A stretch of 46,196 nucleotides of DNA from SAR202 cluster bacterium bin87. Its GTDB lineage: Bacteria > Chloroflexota > Dehalococcoidia > Lucifugimonadales > UBA3495. Shown piece after piece: positions 35,301 through 41,672 of the stretch. Each line of letters starts with the position of its first letter. Position 1 is the stretch's first letter. A model generated the notes under the pieces. The model had not been told where the DNA came from, ran no database searches, and was given only the letters and a program-made list of their open reading frames with translations. Both the position numbers and the translations under genes were made by a program. The stretch lies in contig MPNC01000020.1 of the NCBI GenBank assembly GCA_002238825.1, positions 1 through 46,196 on the forward strand. Reading direction: 5' to 3'.

Positions 35301-36054
35301 GCGGCCGGAGCTGGCATCCATCGCCGTGCCCGCCACCACCGACGGCGGCAACATGGCCGACGAGGACTTCACGGTATCCGCCGGCTGGGGCCACTTCGGC
35401 ACGGGCGAGGCCGTCATGCCCGGCCAGGGGCGGGTGGTGCAGCGCGATTACACCGCCGCCGAGCTGGCCGGCGCCATCCCCGATTCTGACCAGGTCTGGG
35501 GCGACACCACCTTCGACGTGTACCTGAACGAACGCGCCTACTGGCGCAACGTGCCCGCCGCCGTCTGGAACTACCAGCTCGGCGGCTATCAGGTTCTCAA
35601 GAAATGGCTGTCCTACCGGGAGAGCAAGGTGCTGGGTCGCCCGCTGCAACCGGAGGAAGTGCAGCACTTCACCGACACGGCGCGGCGGATCGGCGCAATC
35701 CTGCACCACCAGCAACCGCACGTCCGCAAGCTTGGTTACGGCCAATATGACCACGAACTGGAGCCCGCAGACCACGAACGATTCCAAGAACTGGCCGACC
35801 AGTGGGAAGAGGAAACTTTCTTCCTGTCCAGATCGGATCATGCCATTGCACACCCAGTTCACCAAGAAATCATCAGCTTGGGCCAACCAGTCGTGCCGCT
35901 TATCCTTGAGAGGATGCGTTCGCAAGGCGGCCACTGGTTTGAAGCGCTACAACAGATAACGGGAGAAGATCCGGTATCGCCAGCCGACTATGGCAACATT
36001 GCAGCGATGCAGAGTTCGTGGCTGCAATGGGGCGAAGACCATGGCTACGCCTAG
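32383..36054 (+). CDS. Type IIG/ISP-like restriction-modification enzyme (nuclease + N6-adenine methylase + specificity domain)
   Basis: A 1223-residue single-chain enzyme. The N-terminal nuclease site reads HPDFGLY (D66) ... GVVEVKP (E92-x-K94). A helical connector follows. The N6-adenine methylase has motif I LDPCCGTGAYLGEV near residue 388 and motif IV LGNPPYNGF near 510, and a C-terminal 600-residue portion is typical of ISP-type specificity regions (YRPFDDRWLYWE, SYRESKVLGRP, then YQVLKKWLSY). No helicase domain is present, unlike LlaGI/LlaBIII. Such enzymes modify their own recognition site and cleave unmodified DNA. The gene lies 10 bp behind AbiEii. The sequence after about residue 1140 (QWEEETFFLSRSDHAI...) is less typical and may be an added C-terminal extension. 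Confidence 0.85.
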   Translation: MADRKLVQAVEAYFVDLRMVRATGGATDERSLYVPLANLLNAVGGTLRPKVFCVQELADQGSGHPDFGLYSTRQVQKGRPKTGQKPERGVVEVKPVGDDAWITAGSDQVSRYWDGYRRVLVTNARDFVLMGEDAAGQPVRLETFRIAGSEAEFYGRLEKPRAFANEVGAGLGEYLGRVLSHSASLTEPKDLAWLLASYARDGLARVEAAGDTASLDAVRSALEESLGVRFEGDRGADFFRSTLVQTLFYGIFSAWVLWARQGLSPNGSFDWRTAVWHLRAPLLRALFQQLSDPGRLQPLGLVEVLDWTAAALNRVDREAFFARFDEGEAVPYFYEPFLQAFDPELRKQLGVWYTPTEVVRYMVARVDRALKDDLGITDGLAAENVYVLDPCCGTGAYLGEVLRRIFSNLEDSGLGALVGARVKQAATQRVFGFEIMPAPYVVAHLQVGLTMQDLDAPLSDDGSERAGVFLTNALTGWEPSVQKPLPFPELEQERERADRVKQDTPVLVILGNPPYNGFAGLAVDEERELSEAYRTTKQVRHPEGQGLNDLYVRFFRMAERRIAEKTGQGVVCFISNYSWLDGLSFTGMRERYLEAFDAIRIDCLNGDKYKTGKTTPDGAPDPSIFSTPEDPVGIQVGTAIATLVRKADHAAAQSVGFRHLWGQSKHGELVETAESAADDLYGGVAPLLSLGLPFADLAVSDGWEDWPSLPDLFPTSFSGVKTARDAFLVDIDADRLKARIADYFNKDLSNEEIGRRYPVSMKTSPRFDPIEVRANLLKRSELIEGGFLQYAYRPFDDRWLYWEADTKLLDEKRADYRRHIFPGNLWFSSSNRIRKGETEPQTAFTRHIASYHLIERVANWFPAWLRDDGIALGGTAEYRPNLSLSAQQYLDRLGLGVEDLFHHVIATLHDPAYRTANAGALRMEWPRIPLPGWPDGNAQGAADALIMSAARGRELAALLDSDAAVAGVTTGALRPELASIAVPATTDGGNMADEDFTVSAGWGHFGTGEAVMPGQGRVVQRDYTAAELAGAIPDSDQVWGDTTFDVYLNERAYWRNVPAAVWNYQLGGYQVLKKWLSYRESKVLGRPLQPEEVQHFTDTARRIGAILHHQQPHVRKLGYGQYDHELEPADHERFQELADQWEEETFFLSRSDHAIAHPVHQEIISLGQPVVPLILERMRSQGGHWFEALQQITGEDPVSPADYGNIAAMQSSWLQWGEDHGYA

Positions 36055-36517
36055 GTGGATGACATGGCTGAATATCTCATTCCCCAACCTTCGCAACGAA
36101 GGGTTTACAGTAATAGATCCGCCGTCAGACCGCTACAACTGCATTGCGTACGCCGCCGGGGATACCAGCCAGTGGTGGGATCATACACCTCGCCGCTACT
36201 GGCCATCCTGGGCAATGAGGTCAGCGCAAATTGAAAGCCTGCAAGAAGTTTTCGCCGGATTGGGATTCGGCGAATGTCACGACGGCAGTTTGGAAGCCGG
36301 CTACGAAAAGGTCGCGCTCTACGAGGATGACGGAGAATATCAGCACGCGAGCATTCAAATGCCCAACGGAGCGTGGCGCAGCAAAATGGGCCCAGGGCCA
36401 GTGATCGAGCACCGTAGTCCGGGTTCACTATCTGGTGGACCGTACGGCAATGCGACCATCCACATGAGAAGGGCCGCGAATGCAACCCCTAACCGAATAT
36501 CCGGGGCCACCCGTTGA
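36041..36517 (+). CDS. DUF7689-type protein
   Basis: The 158-residue protein has a conserved core: PSDRYNCIAYAAGDTSQWW, then YWPSWAMRS, LGFGECHDGSLEAGYEKVALYED, HASIQMPNGAWRSKMG, VIEHRSPGSLSGGPYG. This fits the DUF7689 family, seen next to restriction and defence genes. The C(x)IAYAAGD and H(A/S) motifs look like a cysteine-histidine hydrolase-like pair, but the chemistry is not established. The start overlaps the restriction-modification stop by 14 bp; an internal ATG at 36059 is possible. Confidence 0.65.
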   Translation: MATPRWMTWLNISFPNLRNEGFTVIDPPSDRYNCIAYAAGDTSQWWDHTPRRYWPSWAMRSAQIESLQEVFAGLGFGECHDGSLEAGYEKVALYEDDGEYQHASIQMPNGAWRSKMGPGPVIEHRSPGSLSGGPYGNATIHMRRAANATPNRISGATR

Positions 36518-36744: not shown

Positions 36745-37155
36745 ATGCAGAGTCCAACGCTCCTCAACCCTCATTCCCACGTCAATCTTCCAATCGCCGA
36801 CCTCCGTGCCATCACGCAACAGCTGGAAGACCTGAAACGAGTCGGCCCCGAATGGGATGGCCCCGGCACCATCACGCCAGGCCCCGTAGTCGTTGACCGC
36901 ACCGCCGCCTGGCTCACGAAATACTGGCGCACCGAGTTGGGCACCCCCGACATCTGCCCTACCGCTGGCGGCGGCGTCAGCATCAGTTGGGAGTGGAACG
37001 CCATCGAGCACAGCATCGACGTGCGCTCCGACGGCTCCAGCATGGAATGGTGCCAATACAATCCTCGTACCCTGCAGACCATTGAGACCGAGATCGGGAT
37101 GGACCACCAGGGATGGGACACCATACTGACCGGCCTCAACCAATCAGCGGTATGA
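36745..37155 (+). CDS. Hypothetical protein, first of a coupled pair
   Basis: 136 residues with GGAGGCGA before ATG. The pattern LKRVGPEWDGPGTITPGPVVV ... DICPTAGGGVSISWEW matches a recurring class of small proteins with an N-(W)DG-x-G start and a G-G-V-x-I-x-W beta strand, often found in defence islands and toxin-antitoxin loci. No biochemical role known to me. Its stop overlaps the next start as ATGA. Confidence 0.6.
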   Translation: MQSPTLLNPHSHVNLPIADLRAITQQLEDLKRVGPEWDGPGTITPGPVVVDRTAAWLTKYWRTELGTPDICPTAGGGVSISWEWNAIEHSIDVRSDGSSMEWCQYNPRTLQTIETEIGMDHQGWDTILTGLNQSAV

Positions 37156-37577
37156 GGACCCAACCAGAGACACCCCAACAAACAGACCAGAACATCATCC
37201 TGCTCCGGCAGGCCAACCCTCTAGTCGTGAGGAACGGCAAGGCCCAGAAGGGTCTCTTCCGCATCGACACTGACCCGGAAACCGGCGAACGCGCTATTTC
37301 GGTAGAAATGGCCAGCCCCGACTACTCGGCCCAGGACGCTTACGAACGGCACGACGGCGGACACCCGCCGACCATCGGAACAATCGGCATCTCGATGGAC
37401 GAGATAATCCGGTTGAACCTTCAGGCCAGGCCGGACCCACTGCCCGAGAACCCCCACCACTGGCTGTTGGTACTCCCGGATGGAGCCAGCAACAACAGCG
37501 TCCAGAACCCGCTGAAGACCTTCGCCGTCAGCCGCGGCTGGCTGTACGCGCCACCGGGAACTCCGCCGCTACGGTAG
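37152..37577 (+). CDS. Hypothetical protein, second of the coupled pair
   Basis: 141 residues starting at ATGA overlap with the previous gene. The core HWLLVLPDGASNNSVQNPLKTFAVSRGWLY and the segment ISVEMASPDYSAQDAYERHDGGHPPTIGTIGIS look like a compact alpha/beta fold. The overlap and shared orphan status suggest that the two proteins act together. No family named. Confidence 0.55.
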   Translation: MRTQPETPQQTDQNIILLRQANPLVVRNGKAQKGLFRIDTDPETGERAISVEMASPDYSAQDAYERHDGGHPPTIGTIGISMDEIIRLNLQARPDPLPENPHHWLLVLPDGASNNSVQNPLKTFAVSRGWLYAPPGTPPLR

Positions 37578-37765
37578 CCGGCGATCTGTCCACCGTCGTT
37601 GAAAACGAGATCTCCGCCTTGCGCAGCCTCAACTTGGACGGCCGTGAGCTGGTGCTACGCTTGGAGCTATTGCAAGAGCGTTACCGGTTGAACTCGGAGA
37701 GGCAGAGCGAAGCCTCCGTTGATTCCTTCGCTACGCGCATCATTTGCTCCGACGGCTTGCTATGA
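37574..37765 (+). pseudogene. Orphan coding-like fragment
   Basis: An uninterrupted frame reads VAGDLSTVVENEISALRSLN, then LDGRELVLRLELLQERYRLN, and ends at TGA 37763-37765. It looks like protein but has no start codon with a ribosome-binding site. It may be a remnant of a third gene of the preceding pair or a relic of the methylase fragment downstream. Confidence 0.3.
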
Positions 37766-37799
37766 AACGTCCACGCTGAACAGACCTGAAAACGGGGCC

Positions 37800-38133
37800 A
37801 TTATTCGATTCTCTCATACCCCATTTCAAAATGAGTCACTACCGTACGGAGCGAGAGATTTCCACAAGCACGGATGGAAGCTGCCCATCCCTCGCTACGA
37901 CACCAATGACCCGCTGCAAGTTCGGCTCAGTGAACTGGGAGCAATCGCAGAGCAGGAATGCAATACCTTGATCGCCGAAAGCGACGTCCGCGACAATCCA
38001 GCCGGCGACGCCCAATCCCGAGCTGCGCCACGAGTGGCAACCCAACAGCGAAACCGCCCAAGCCATTGAGGTAACCGTGGCTCAACTGCTCAGCGACCCA
38101 GCCCAAGCCGCATTAGCAGAGCGGCAGATAAAT
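37800..38133 (+). pseudogene. C-terminal remnant of a DNA methylase/restriction enzyme, frameshifted
   Basis: One frame gives FHKHGWKLPIPRYDTNDPLQ, then VRLSELGAIAEQECN. After a shift near 38000 another frame gives PNPELRHEWQPNSETAQAIE and LLSDPAQAALAERQI. Together these match the end of N6-adenine methylase-type restriction enzymes, as I remember it. No methylase motifs remain. Confidence 0.5.
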
Positions 38134-38773
38134 GGCAGATGACACAAATGAAGGCCATCTGGGAGAAGGTTCGTTGCGCCGCAAAATCAGCGAACAAGAA
38201 TTCGCCGCACAGGAAAGCAAGCCGAACGGTGGCATGGCCCAACCTGATGCCGCAACGCCACGTAATGGAGAGTTGAATATGATCCAAGGCCTGCCGGGAT
38301 TCCGCGAAGTCCCCCAAAACTATAACGTGGAAGACCTCATCACCGCGTTCAGCCAAAACGACCAAGAATTAGCGAAATTGCGTTCAGCAGACATCCTGCT
38401 GCTGCCAGAGCGGTTCCAATTCGCGGATGGAATGTTCGCGGGAGAATACTACCCCGATAGCACCGACACTTTCCTCCAATTCCTGGAGTCAGAGAAAGAA
38501 ACGAGTAACGGCATATTAGCCCGTGCGTCCGACGACGAGACGTTCATGCGCAGAAGCGATGAAGTATGGCTAGCAGCCATCAAGGTTGCCTTGCCGGCAC
38601 TGATACCGAAAGTGGTGGACCTCGTGCGGCGCTATCTGCTGAAGCAGGGAAAGCAACAGAACGATGTGGTGCATTTGAAAATGGTTGTTGGCGACAAGCA
38701 ACTTGAGTACGATGGGCTGGTCAAGAACCTGCATACTGTAGTCGAAGAAACGAAACACCTATGGGACAAATAG
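38132..38773 (+). CDS. Hypothetical protein A of a SEC-C module
   Basis: A 213-residue protein; an internal ATG at 38279 preceded by GGAGAG 7 bp upstream is a strong alternative start giving 165 residues. The core (MIQGLPGFREVPQNYNVEDLITAF ... LLLPERFQFADGMF) leads to helices LPALIPKVVDLVRRYLLKQG and a C-terminal VVGDKQLEYDGLVKNLHTVVEE strand-helix. No domain recognised. It overlaps the following SEC-C gene by 13 bp, so the two are coupled. Confidence 0.6.
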   Translation: MADDTNEGHLGEGSLRRKISEQEFAAQESKPNGGMAQPDAATPRNGELNMIQGLPGFREVPQNYNVEDLITAFSQNDQELAKLRSADILLLPERFQFADGMFAGEYYPDSTDTFLQFLESEKETSNGILARASDDETFMRRSDEVWLAAIKVALPALIPKVVDLVRRYLLKQGKQQNDVVHLKMVVGDKQLEYDGLVKNLHTVVEETKHLWDK

Positions 38774-39666
38774 AACCGTCGGACGCGGAACGCTATCCGC
38801 ACTTGCTACTCGCGGTCAAGGAAATCGCGCGATTCCGCGAATTGCCAGATTTGCCGCGACACTTGGACAACCTCGCAGAACGGAAAGAGCACGCAGTAAA
38901 AACGCAAGGGGATGAACCCCAAGCCAAGACCATTTGGTGCTTGGAACGCTTGGTGTCCGTGCACACTGAATTCGTGTCGGCTCACAACTCCATGCGATCA
39001 GGCGATGTAGTGGACGCATTCGACAAGATAGAGCGCATCCTAACCGACATCCATCTCATCCGTGGGCACCTGAACGACGCCAGCGGAAAGTTTGGACTGG
39101 ACCTGATCCAAAACATAGCGTGGAACTGGGTCACGTTACTCGACCCGCCTTACGGAATTAGCCATGGGTCAATCATAAAAAGAGCGTATTGTTCGATCTG
39201 CCAGACCAAGGTTGGAATACGGTGGCCATGTGGCCACATCAAAGGCGAAATCTACGGTGGACAACTCTGTTTCCGTGTCATCAAGGAAGCAGAGGTAATT
39301 GAAATTTCCCCCACCGACCGACCAGGGTCATTACTATTGATCAACCACAGAAGACGGATGCTGATCAGAGCTGGCATGTTCATGGAATTGGCTGACAAAC
39401 TACTGTCGCCATATACGTTCTGGTTCCCAGAATCTATCACAGACCTCAAACAACACCCAAAATACCGAGATGTAGGGCGTAACGCAAAATGTCCTTGCGA
39501 TTCGGGAAAGAAACGCAAGCGGTGTTGCACCGATGGAAATCTCAAAATTAAGCACTGGGACATCTACATCATCAACGATCATACTAAACGCCCAATACAC
39601 GCCATCAAACGGCAGCCGCAAGATGCTCCGCACGCTGAAATTCGCTCTGCGCTACCAACCAGTTAA
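38761..39666 (+). CDS. SEC-C zinc-motif protein B of the module
   Basis: A 301-residue protein with a helical N-terminal half. A central zinc-ribbon-like CSICQTKVGIRWPCGH follows, and at about 237-256 a SEC-C motif, DVGRNAKCPCDSGKKRKRCC, similar to the zinc-binding tail of SecA. SEC-C motifs bind zinc and often mediate protein contacts in otherwise unknown proteins. The gene ends one base before the IS1380 remnant; the final residues may be native or shortened by that insertion. Coupled with the 213-residue protein upstream. Confidence 0.6.
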   Translation: MGQIEPSDAERYPHLLLAVKEIARFRELPDLPRHLDNLAERKEHAVKTQGDEPQAKTIWCLERLVSVHTEFVSAHNSMRSGDVVDAFDKIERILTDIHLIRGHLNDASGKFGLDLIQNIAWNWVTLLDPPYGISHGSIIKRAYCSICQTKVGIRWPCGHIKGEIYGGQLCFRVIKEAEVIEISPTDRPGSLLLINHRRRMLIRAGMFMELADKLLSPYTFWFPESITDLKQHPKYRDVGRNAKCPCDSGKKRKRCCTDGNLKIKHWDIYIINDHTKRPIHAIKRQPQDAPHAEIRSALPTS

Positions 39667-39786
39667 CCCCAATCCACCGAAGAGGTGATTGTCGAGGGGT
39701 GCTGAGAGGGTAAGAAAGTGCTCCCGGCTTCGGGGATAATGGTTTGTGAAATAGCAAACCGCCCTGAAACAAGGAGCACCCAACGG

Positions 39787-40222
39787 ATGCTATCACGCAA
39801 CGACCCCGACCGCATCCAAGTCGCCTTTAATGACCACCGCCTGGTAGTTGATGCTGGTCTGATCCTTCCAGTCACGTTGGCCCACCGCGTGGGATTGTGC
39901 GAGCTGGTGGGCAACCATGTTGACCTGGGAGATGCGCCGGGTCGAGCCAATGCTGGAGACAAACTGCTGACGTTGGCGGCGTCGGCATTGGCCGAAGGTG
40001 ACTGCATCGACGATGCCGATGCGCTACGCGCTGGAGGAACCGAGCAGGCGCTGGGCTGCGTGGTCAAGGCGCCATCCACCTTGGGAACCTTCCTGAGGAG
40101 TTTCCGGTGGGGCCACGTCCGGCAACTGGATCGGGTGAGCCGGGAGTTTCTGGCCCGAGCGTGGTCGGCTGGCGCCGGACCGGGCGATGATCCGTTGACC
40201 ATCGACCTTGATTCCACGCTAG
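39787..40222 (+). pseudogene. IS1380-family transposase, 3' part lost at an IS701-like insertion
   Basis: ATG 39787 is preceded by AAGGAGC. The N-terminal half is typical: LAHRVGLCELVGNHVDLGDA, GDKLLTLAASALAEGDCIDD, GTFLRSFRWGHVRQLDRVSR and LTIDLDST, in which D is the first catalytic aspartate. After DST the frame runs into the left end of an IS701-like element. The rest of this transposase is not found on the other side, so the junction is not a clean insertion. Confidence 0.8.
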
Positions 40223-41672
40223 ACTTTCCGCATTTCAAGCGGCGTAAGCGAGGGAATCCACAAGTCGGTGGTACAGAGCCACCGGGAGTTCCTGCGTGTC
40301 GGAGTTGCCGGACGACAGTGAGAAACCTTCTGACGCCAGCCACAGGTGCCGACGCACCAGGGCGATGGCGTCTACGAAGGTCGGCGACGGTTTGTCGTAC
40401 CAGGCCGCAGTGCGTTGGGTGATGGGATGACGTTGCTGCAAGGCGTGGGCGGCCAGGGTGGTCCAGGAGAAGAGGCCCAGCAGGGCAGGGGTGGTGCGGG
40501 CGATGGCCAGGTCCGACCACTGGCGCTGGGTCTCGACGCCCAGGTGGGTCCTGACCTCCTGAAAGGTGACTTCCAGTTGCCAGCGCAGGACAAACCACTG
40601 GAGGATCTGGATCGGGTCCGCCGCCGGATCGGTGCAAAGCAGGGCCTGGGGGTCGAAGGCGCCCTGGGGGTCTCGGATCAGCACCCAGCGCAGGAGTACC
40701 GGCGGCTTGCTGGAGCGGTACCACACCGCCGTCTGGGAGGTGAGTTCCACGATGCGGGTGGTGCCGTCATACCAGTCCACCGACACGCTGTCCCAGATTA
40801 CGTCGGCGTGATCAAGGAGCGTTTTCAGCGGTGGTCGCCGCGGGCCTTTCAGTGGTGTCCGGCCGTTCTGACCCGGCTGACGAGCTGGCGCTGGCGCATA
40901 CAGGGCGGCGTCCAGGCGCAGTCTCGCGATCAGGGTAACGGGTTCACGGAGGGACTGGCAGCAGTGGAGCAAATCCAGCACGGCGTAGCTGTTGTCCCCC
41001 ACCAACACCAGGGGACGTTCGGGCAGCCAGCGACGCAGTTGCATGACCATCTGTCTCGCCCAGTCGGTGATCTTCTTGTGCCGGCGTCCTTGTTGCTGAT
41101 GGTACCGGGACGAGGGCGCCAGCACGGTGAGCACCGGCAGCGCCCAATGGCGACCGGCCCAGGGGACGTGTCCCAGCCACATCAGGGAGATCCAGCGCAA
41201 CCCACTGGCTTTGACCAGTTGGCTCCGGCTGGAACGCACCGGGTCGCGATAGATGGCCCGCGCCCTGATCTTGGCCCCACGACGTCGTTCCAGGGTCTCG
41301 TCAATGCCGAAGATCAACGGACCGTCGCCGCGGTCCAGGTGTTGGAGCAGCAGTACCAACAGGACGCGGGCGGCCTCCCGAGATGACCACACCGCCCGAT
41401 TGAGCACCTCGTGGTAGCGGGCGTAGTCGCGCTGGTCGCTGCGTCCCATGACGCGCAGCGCTGCTGCCACGGTGCGCTGGCCCGGGGTGAGGATCGTGCC
41501 CACCAGCAGCAGTTGTGCTTTCCGCCAAGTCGGGTTGGTGAACAGCGTGGCGAAGGGAAGGAGAACGGCTACAATGGCATCGGGCAGGGTGAGCATGGCT
41601 GGACCTTTAGTCAGATTTGGGTCAGGCTAGCTTACCCTGCCTTTATACTTTTTCTAAATTTTGCGTAAAGCC
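40223..41672 (-). mobile_element. IS701-like insertion sequence
   Basis: Related termini ACTTTCCGCA at the left (40223) and GCTTTACGCA at the right (reverse strand, to 41672) enclose one transposase gene. The left flank is CTAG, matching the YTAR target of IS701, but the right flank is unrelated (CCAG). The element therefore lacks a matching target duplication and marks a rearranged junction. Confidence 0.6.
40235..41596 (-). CDS. IS701-family DDE transposase
   Basis: A full-length 453-residue DDE enzyme: helical N-terminus, then PLIFGIDETLERRRGAKI with the first aspartate, RPLVLVGDNSYAVLDLL with the second, and a C-terminal WQLEVTFQEVRTHLGVE block with the catalytic glutamate. The spacing suits IS701/IS4-like elements. 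The gene fills almost the whole element, as usual. No frameshift seen; it may be active. Antiparallel to the interrupted IS1380 transposase and to the ankyrin remnant. Confidence 0.9.
   Translation of the reverse strand: MLTLPDAIVAVLLPFATLFTNPTWRKAQLLLVGTILTPGQRTVAAALRVMGRSDQRDYARYHEVLNRAVWSSREAARVLLVLLLQHLDRGDGPLIFGIDETLERRRGAKIRARAIYRDPVRSSRSQLVKASGLRWISLMWLGHVPWAGRHWALPVLTVLAPSSRYHQQQGRRHKKITDWARQMVMQLRRWLPERPLVLVGDNSYAVLDLLHCCQSLREPVTLIARLRLDAALYAPAPARQPGQNGRTPLKGPRRPPLKTLLDHADVIWDSVSVDWYDGTTRIVELTSQTAVWYRSSKPPVLLRWVLIRDPQGAFDPQALLCTDPAADPIQILQWFVLRWQLEVTFQEVRTHLGVETQRQWSDLAIARTTPALLGLFSWTTLAAHALQQRHPITQRTAAWYDKPSPTFVDAIALVRRHLWLASEGFSLSSGNSDTQELPVALYHRLVDSLAYAA

Follow-up and report, generated by a model that had tools for sequence, protein, structure and literature searches.

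Two overlapping genes lie between a methylase remnant and a transposase

Within the window, that is, the whole stretch of 46,196 nucleotides analysed here, two forward frames at 38132-38773 (213 codons) and 38761-39666 (301 codons) share 13 nt, as a preliminary description of this DNA had stated. The same description had placed them between a decayed methylase and an insertion sequence, at the end of a run of anti-phage genes, and all of these neighbours were recovered (Table 1). The methylase remnant, whose end near 38140 was read from the sequence, matched seven plasmid records by tblastn, five of them annotated as N-6 DNA methylase. The transposase gene matched 127 plasmid records, with transposase annotations on the best of them, and it breaks what seems to be a second, truncated transposase (39718-40422, read by eye). 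Upstream of the pair, PADLOC models detected E1-E2, AbiEi/AbiEii, type IIG enzyme and PDC-M32-like genes. At 51%, the pair has a lower G+C content than the window (62%), which fits an arrival by transfer. No Rfam family was found between 36000 and 42000, and no repeat pattern with bearing on the pair was found.

Two observations concern the upstream genes. Two small overlapping genes at 36745-37577 match PDC-M32B almost end to end and, in PDC-M32A, just the final third (model positions 250-369 of 375); they are possibly a truncated candidate defence pair. Immediately 3' of the type IIG enzyme, a DUF7689 protein is encoded at 35990-36517 (Pfam E 1.8e-32).

Table 1 Features of the ORF1-ORF2 locus, in window positions. 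G012 is the nearest relative, from the same genus.
Feature	Position	Strand	Basis
N-6 adenine DNA methylase remnant, upstream boundary of the pair	37719..38140	+	tblastn, query 37719-38066
In-frame 5' extension of the 213-codon frame, probably untranslated	38132..38278	+	G012 upstream region without similarity; overlap with the 3' end of the methylase remnant
Likely ORF1 ribosome-binding site GGAGAG, 6 nt 5' of ATG 38279	38267..38272	+	Sequence
ORF1, 5' gene of the pair, probably 164 aa, small alpha+beta, with a single hydrophobic segment	38279..38773	+	Conservation in G012, dN/dS, homologues
ORF1 hydrophobic segment, residues 98-116, possible membrane helix	38570..38626	+	Kyte-Doolittle value of 1.77 for a 19-residue stretch
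ORF2, 301 aa, with a helical N-terminal half, a zinc hairpin and a SEC-C motif	38761..39666	+	Sequence, model, dN/dS
ORF2 prohead-protease-like segment, residues 129-197, S134 aligned to the presumed catalytic serine	39145..39351	+	hhalign
ORF2 first zinc site, C144, C147, C157, H159	39190..39237	+	Columns invariant in 15/15 covering rows
ORF2 SEC-C motif, residues 240-257 (C244, C246, C255, C256)	39478..39531	+	Invariant in 16/16 alignment rows
Transposase gene, downstream boundary of the pair	40235..41596	-	tblastn

ORF1 is a small protein with a conserved hydrophobic segment

The first protein had been described as 213 residues long. That frame is present, but its first 49 codons are unconserved in G012, where ORF1 has 164 aa and a start matching the window's ATG 38279. 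Since no matching frame extends 5' of the G012 start and GGAGAG precedes the window's ATG, the 213-codon frame is probably too long and the true ORF1 probably comprises 164 aa. Over these 164 aa the two copies are 65% identical. Between the window and G012, dN/dS is 0.25 for ORF1 (164 codons) and 0.28 for ORF2 (286 codons), values that indicate purifying selection, so that both genes are maintained and chance frames are excluded.

No family of Pfam, PADLOC, NCBIfam or PHROG fits ORF1. Its AlphaFold model (pLDDT 83, pTM 0.81) looks soluble overall. The hydrophobic segment reaches a Kyte-Doolittle value of at least 1.6 in 13 of 14 family members and could insert into the membrane, a suggestion kept conditional by the strand plus helix that AlphaFold draws there. 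The structure search of the first protein, advised in the preliminary description, gave no convincing match in the PDB (best VIA Z 3.8, rmsd 3.4 over 87 residues), and a sequence search of the PDB returned weak archease rows only, with E 0.14 and worse. An identity with bDLD1 was set aside, as it appeared with E 0.10-0.17 for the window copy alone, one of 14 members. Another single member carries an extra N-terminal HTH (L018:5557-6321), and the ORF1 of L016:1924-2811 carries an extra N-terminal domain of about 120 residues in which no known domain was recognised.

ORF2 combines a helical half, a zinc hairpin and a SEC-C motif

Both cysteine motifs of the preliminary description were located in ORF2: the second zinc knuckle, CSICQTKVGIRWPCGH, at residues 144-159, and the SEC-C motif, KCPCDSGKKRKRCC. 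ORF2 shows the spacing of SEC-C, C-x-C-x8-CC or C-x-C-x8-CH. The Pfam SEC-C family PF02810 stays below threshold for the window copy (E 0.033) but is found in 13 of 16 members at E<=1, with a best E of 1.5e-9; it is the sole Pfam family detected on the ORF2 members. SEC-C is a motif rather than a functional family and, apart from these 20 residues, named families cover neither ORF1 nor ORF2. The PADLOC SEC-C models (E2, E1-E2, PDC-S12) resemble ORF2 in their C-terminal SEC-C, but match its tail alone, residues 218-273, with E 6e-6 at best. No E2 catalytic or other defence domain, as in E1-E2 or CBASS-like ubiquitin defence, was detected in ORF2 with PADLOC, and no model of PADLOC-DB 2.0.0 covers most of either protein: ORF1 has no match and ORF2 is matched in its tail only.

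The fold search of the PDB with ORF2 gave no convincing match; the best (VIA Z 8.0, rmsd 2.8 over 80 residues) corresponds to the helical part, and such a level is common among helical bundles. The absence of a convincing PDB match for ORF1 or ORF2 does not demonstrate new folds. By sequence, the PDB yielded mainly SEC-C relatives. Yippee-Mis18 was rejected as an identity for ORF2, having been hit at E 0.1 in only 1 of 16 members. A PVQKYSV motif, near-invariant in the other members, has been lost from the copies of the window and G012.

ORF1 and ORF2 form a conserved module

Scanning genome contigs with four ORF2 members yielded 18 loci, and an ORF1 profile found ORF1 directly upstream of ORF2 in 16 of them. 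The other two lack a complete neighbour: L030 begins inside ORF2, at a contig end, and L015 (Peptococcaceae) has ORF2 with no ORF1 in the 1.3 kb upstream, which counts against a strict pair. When 250 genomes of the host's order were searched independently for the two genes, ORF1 was present in four and ORF2 (E<=1e-12) in the same four, where the genes are always adjacent. Ten pair-bearing genomes have one ORF1 copy each (10/10). With start codons of our choice, 20 of 23 pairs overlap and the greatest gap is 17 nt. The ORF1 and ORF2 distance matrices of these 23 pairs are strongly correlated (Mantel r 0.91, 0/5000 permutations). The 23-pair set omits duplicates of L027 (L028, L029), near-duplicates of L019 (L020) and L017 (L011), copies of the L013 cassette described below (L039, L059) and the cut loci L022 and L030; the alignments keep L030, which starts in ORF2, and L022, with its ORF1 cut, as partial rows. 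L004 and L014 are one and the same contig.

Taken together, these results make it virtually certain that ORF1-ORF2 is a genuine module, conserved and translationally coupled. The two-gene module without known counterpart that had been proposed is thereby borne out by adjacency, overlap and matching trees, and neither a named family nor a paper was found for it. A search of the open-licence literature for SEC-C in conflict systems or phage defence, and for Humcor2, CxxC proteins and prohead proteases with zinc or CxxC, returned nothing on this pair.

The two families were unnamed before, whereas two-gene mobile conflict modules are a kind of system already known. As described by Kaur et al. 2020 (PMC7159879), EACC1 is a two-gene membrane conflict system whose 5' gene encodes one helix with alpha+beta ends, and our pair resembles it in having two genes, the 5' one small, alpha+beta and with a single hydrophobic segment that may be a membrane helix. 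The EACC1 partner fuses a caspase to a variable tail and the system is biased to multicellular actinobacteria, whereas ORF2 is a constant zinc protein and the pair has no such bias. Membership in EACC1 was rejected, PF19953 being unmatched in 14/14 ORF1 members at E<=10. An EACC1-type 3' caspase or cyclase plus variable effector was not found, Pfam recognising only SEC-C in ORF2. A direct EACC1 profile comparison relied on five poor Chloroflexota comparator loci and says little.

ORF2 contains a segment homologous to tailed-phage prohead proteases

Comparison of the ORF2 family with a phage protein profile gave an hhalign probability of 97.8% (E 1.3e-12, 68 columns), and 91.8% (E 7e-7) after masking of Cys and His; the controls gave 0.2% (reversed) and 0.1% (ORF1). 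These E-values refer to one comparison with a phage set gathered from tblastn matches and, because this set was picked by similarity, are not those of a blind search. The motif S-x9-CxxC is present in 23/23 ORF2 and 9/9 phage proteins. The ORF2 of L025 matches PHROG 18299, head maturation protease, with E 1.2e-4, and tblastn with that of L015 retrieved 13 phage records at E<=1. The genes matched there include some annotated as prohead protease or as major head and protease protein; another is an unannotated gene just 3' of a portal gene. A Foldseek search of the BFVD structures with the ORF2 model ranks a prohead protease first (probability 0.80, E 0.19), and further rows reach probability 1.00, every E-value being above 0.1.

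The shared segment is short, about 68 residues. ORF2 and the prohead proteases of, for instance, Bacillus phage KLEB27-3 and Rhodococcus phage E3 (gp77) have in common S-x9-CxxC...CxH, the ribbon and an E-hydrophobic-S-hydrophobic strand, with equal order and spacing, and ORF2 has both the catalytic-serine strand and the downstream E-x-S-x-V strand expected of these proteases. We conclude from these profile and motif comparisons that residues ~129-197 of ORF2 are homologous to the active-serine strand, the zinc ribbon and the following strand of tailed-phage prohead proteases. We take the phage serine aligned to S134 to be the catalytic one.

ORF2 differs from these proteases in that a helical half, usually with SEC-C in addition, replaces their N-terminal half, and in that its genes lie outside head operons. 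The active histidine of prohead proteases sits in their N-terminal half. In ORF2 this half is absent; the alignment begins at the serine strand, before which the model is helical, and ORF2 would thus be expected to lack protease activity, the part carrying the histidine being missing. Although the serine is invariant, an active protease was set aside as unlikely for ORF2, because of this missing part and because H265 of ORF2 has no clear counterpart in the SEC-C-less subtype described below. Among the phage sequences, L043, L044 and L047-L054 are tailed-phage prohead proteases in which a CxxC...CxH zinc ribbon is inserted after the serine strand, ahead of the strand that follows; we know of no description of a role for this ribbon.

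A subtype without SEC-C occurs in archaea, a virus and Rhizobium

Adjacent pairs whose ORF2 has no SEC-C motif were found on a Haloterrigena plasmid, in the pleolipovirus Humcor2 and on a Rhizobium jaguaris plasmid. Their ORF2 aligns with the main family at an hhalign probability of 98.6% (E 7.4e-16, two archaeal copies), and their ORF1 relatives align with the main ORF1 at 91.4% (E 8.8e-7, all three copies; reversed control 0.1%). In Humcor2, the 'CxxC motif protein' HrrHm2_020 is a full ORF2 homologue, differing from the main ORF2 in the missing SEC-C motif, and HrrHm2_025, upstream of it, is an ORF1 homologue. This pair (L045:1027-2435), with its protease-like hairpin, lies between Rep and structural genes. 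Pleolipoviruses build no protein head, so the target of the Humcor2 copy would be another virus. Humcor2 is reported to have been detected as an induced provirus in a tailed-virus stock of the same host, and Humcor1, a tailed provirus of Humcor2's host, in another stock (PMC7911831).

The pair is mobile and occurs in mixed contexts

By record title, the loci belong to Chloroflexi, Hymenobacter, several Gammaproteobacteria, Phenylobacterium, Rhizobium, Deltaproteobacteria and Synergistales, so that the pair has a rare and patchy spread over Chloroflexota, Bacteroidota, Proteobacteria and Synergistales. Only one of 369 genomes of Gammaproteobacteria, the class of L025, has it, namely L025's own. 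Among plasmid records, L025 ORF2 matches 210 and L025 ORF1 matches 203 (E<=1e-3), two sets that were counted separately, shared records not being matched one by one; nearly all come from Enterobacter, Citrobacter, Klebsiella, Escherichia and Salmonella. In E. coli CX12, the pair sits at a prophage edge. Three pattern scans of 2.9 million viral contigs, which reach close relatives only, found no relative of ORF1, ORF2 or the archaeal ORF2. We conclude that the pair is mobile.

The neighbourhood search that had been recommended thus returned a module, in mixed contexts. Of 30 neighbour proteins that we had picked from 91 tallied and scanned one at a time, with no control set, six matched PADLOC models at E<=1e-12: Drt2, an AbiLi-like protein, PglZ (beside the ORF1-less L015), AbiEii, PDC-S05 and a NucC-like nuclease. 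Elsewhere, annotation names as neighbours ABC-three-component genes and, together with an AAA ATPase, AbiEii. Ordinary genes surround the copies of Pseudoalteromonas, Acinetobacter pDETAB15 and G012 (those around L010 and G012 were identified by eye). Mobile or defence-rich surroundings outnumber housekeeping ones, the reverse of the mainly housekeeping distribution that the preliminary description had named as speaking against its proposal. On balance, we put a defence role of the pair at about even odds, and any role at all in defence or virus conflict at slightly better than even. At L015:1318-9937, the ORF2 without ORF1 adjoins PglZ in a BREX- or Pgl-like cluster, of which PglZ was scanned singly and the other genes come from the tally only.

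Discussion

The reading that we put forward, as possible rather than probable, is that of a mobile anti-virus (or virus-versus-virus) module in which ORF2 would sense or mimic head assembly and ORF1 would act at the membrane. Since the genes are translationally coupled, the two proteins would probably act as a complex. The ORF2 hairpin might bind the partners of the head-maturation enzyme, namely scaffold, capsid or portal, or else copy that enzyme as a decoy, and ORF1 might be the executor at the membrane, freed or activated by ORF2. That the hairpin was captured by cells and mobile elements specifically as a bait or dominant-negative decoy, that the membrane partner shuts the infected cell down during construction of a viral head and that viruses use the module against one another is a stricter version, a new class of virus-sensing module in bacteria and archaea, which we consider unlikely. 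The kinship of a piece of ORF2 with a head-maturation enzyme makes the putative anti-virus role likelier.

The same gene arrangement would suit a toxin-antitoxin-like pair, with ORF1 as membrane toxin and ORF2 as zinc-dependent inhibitor, serving plasmid or island upkeep and affecting phages as a by-product. Overlapping genes, a small 5' protein with a hydrophobic segment, carriage on plasmids and islands and the HTH fused to ORF1 in L018 all agree with it; yet that HTH is confined to one of 14 members, ORF1 is unlike known toxins and the prohead-protease segment would go unexplained, so we give this reading little credence. It is likewise improbable that the pair serves the virus or mobile element itself, for example through piracy of a competitor's or helper's head protease or through regulation of its own genes, rather than host defence. 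Here the prohead-protease homology is joined by the Humcor2 copy, in a provirus reported as induced in a tailed-virus stock of its host (PMC7911831), and by the prophage-edge copy of E. coli CX12, whereas satellite or packaging genes were not seen beside most copies and the pattern scans, limited to close relatives, found no relative in the viral contigs. Finally, ORF2 could be a zinc helper of membrane-protein biogenesis, a SecA-tail-like chaperone of ORF1, its hairpin being a common small fold unlinked to viruses. SEC-C is also the tail of SecA, as the PDB sequence matches show, and many unrelated proteins of the same genomes have SEC-C alone in common with ORF2. But a pair so patchy and rare in both Gammaproteobacteria and the host's order, an entire subtype without SEC-C and a hairpin similarity that persists with Cys and His masked argue against such a helper, and we regard it as unlikely.

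If the anti-virus reading is true, a defence module would detect head assembly by means of a fragment of the enzyme with which the virus itself matures, and such a module would be common to bacteria, archaea and one archaeal virus. Some 200 enteric plasmid records already contain the pair, unnoticed, as do 24 of 5,426 E. coli genomes, in 21 of which the match covers at least 80% of the query. The E. coli pair occupies L013:7423-8693 and has copies in E. coli that are 100% identical to it. In the three enteric plasmid records that were inspected, the order is a transposase, given as ISLad2 where it has a name, a TPR or hypothetical gene, an FRG-domain gene and then the pair. This transposase-TPR/hypothetical-FRG-pair cassette was observed at L013:3681-8693, L039, L041 and L059, on enteric plasmids and one E. 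coli chromosome, and its FRG and TPR genes may be working partners of the pair or a second module.
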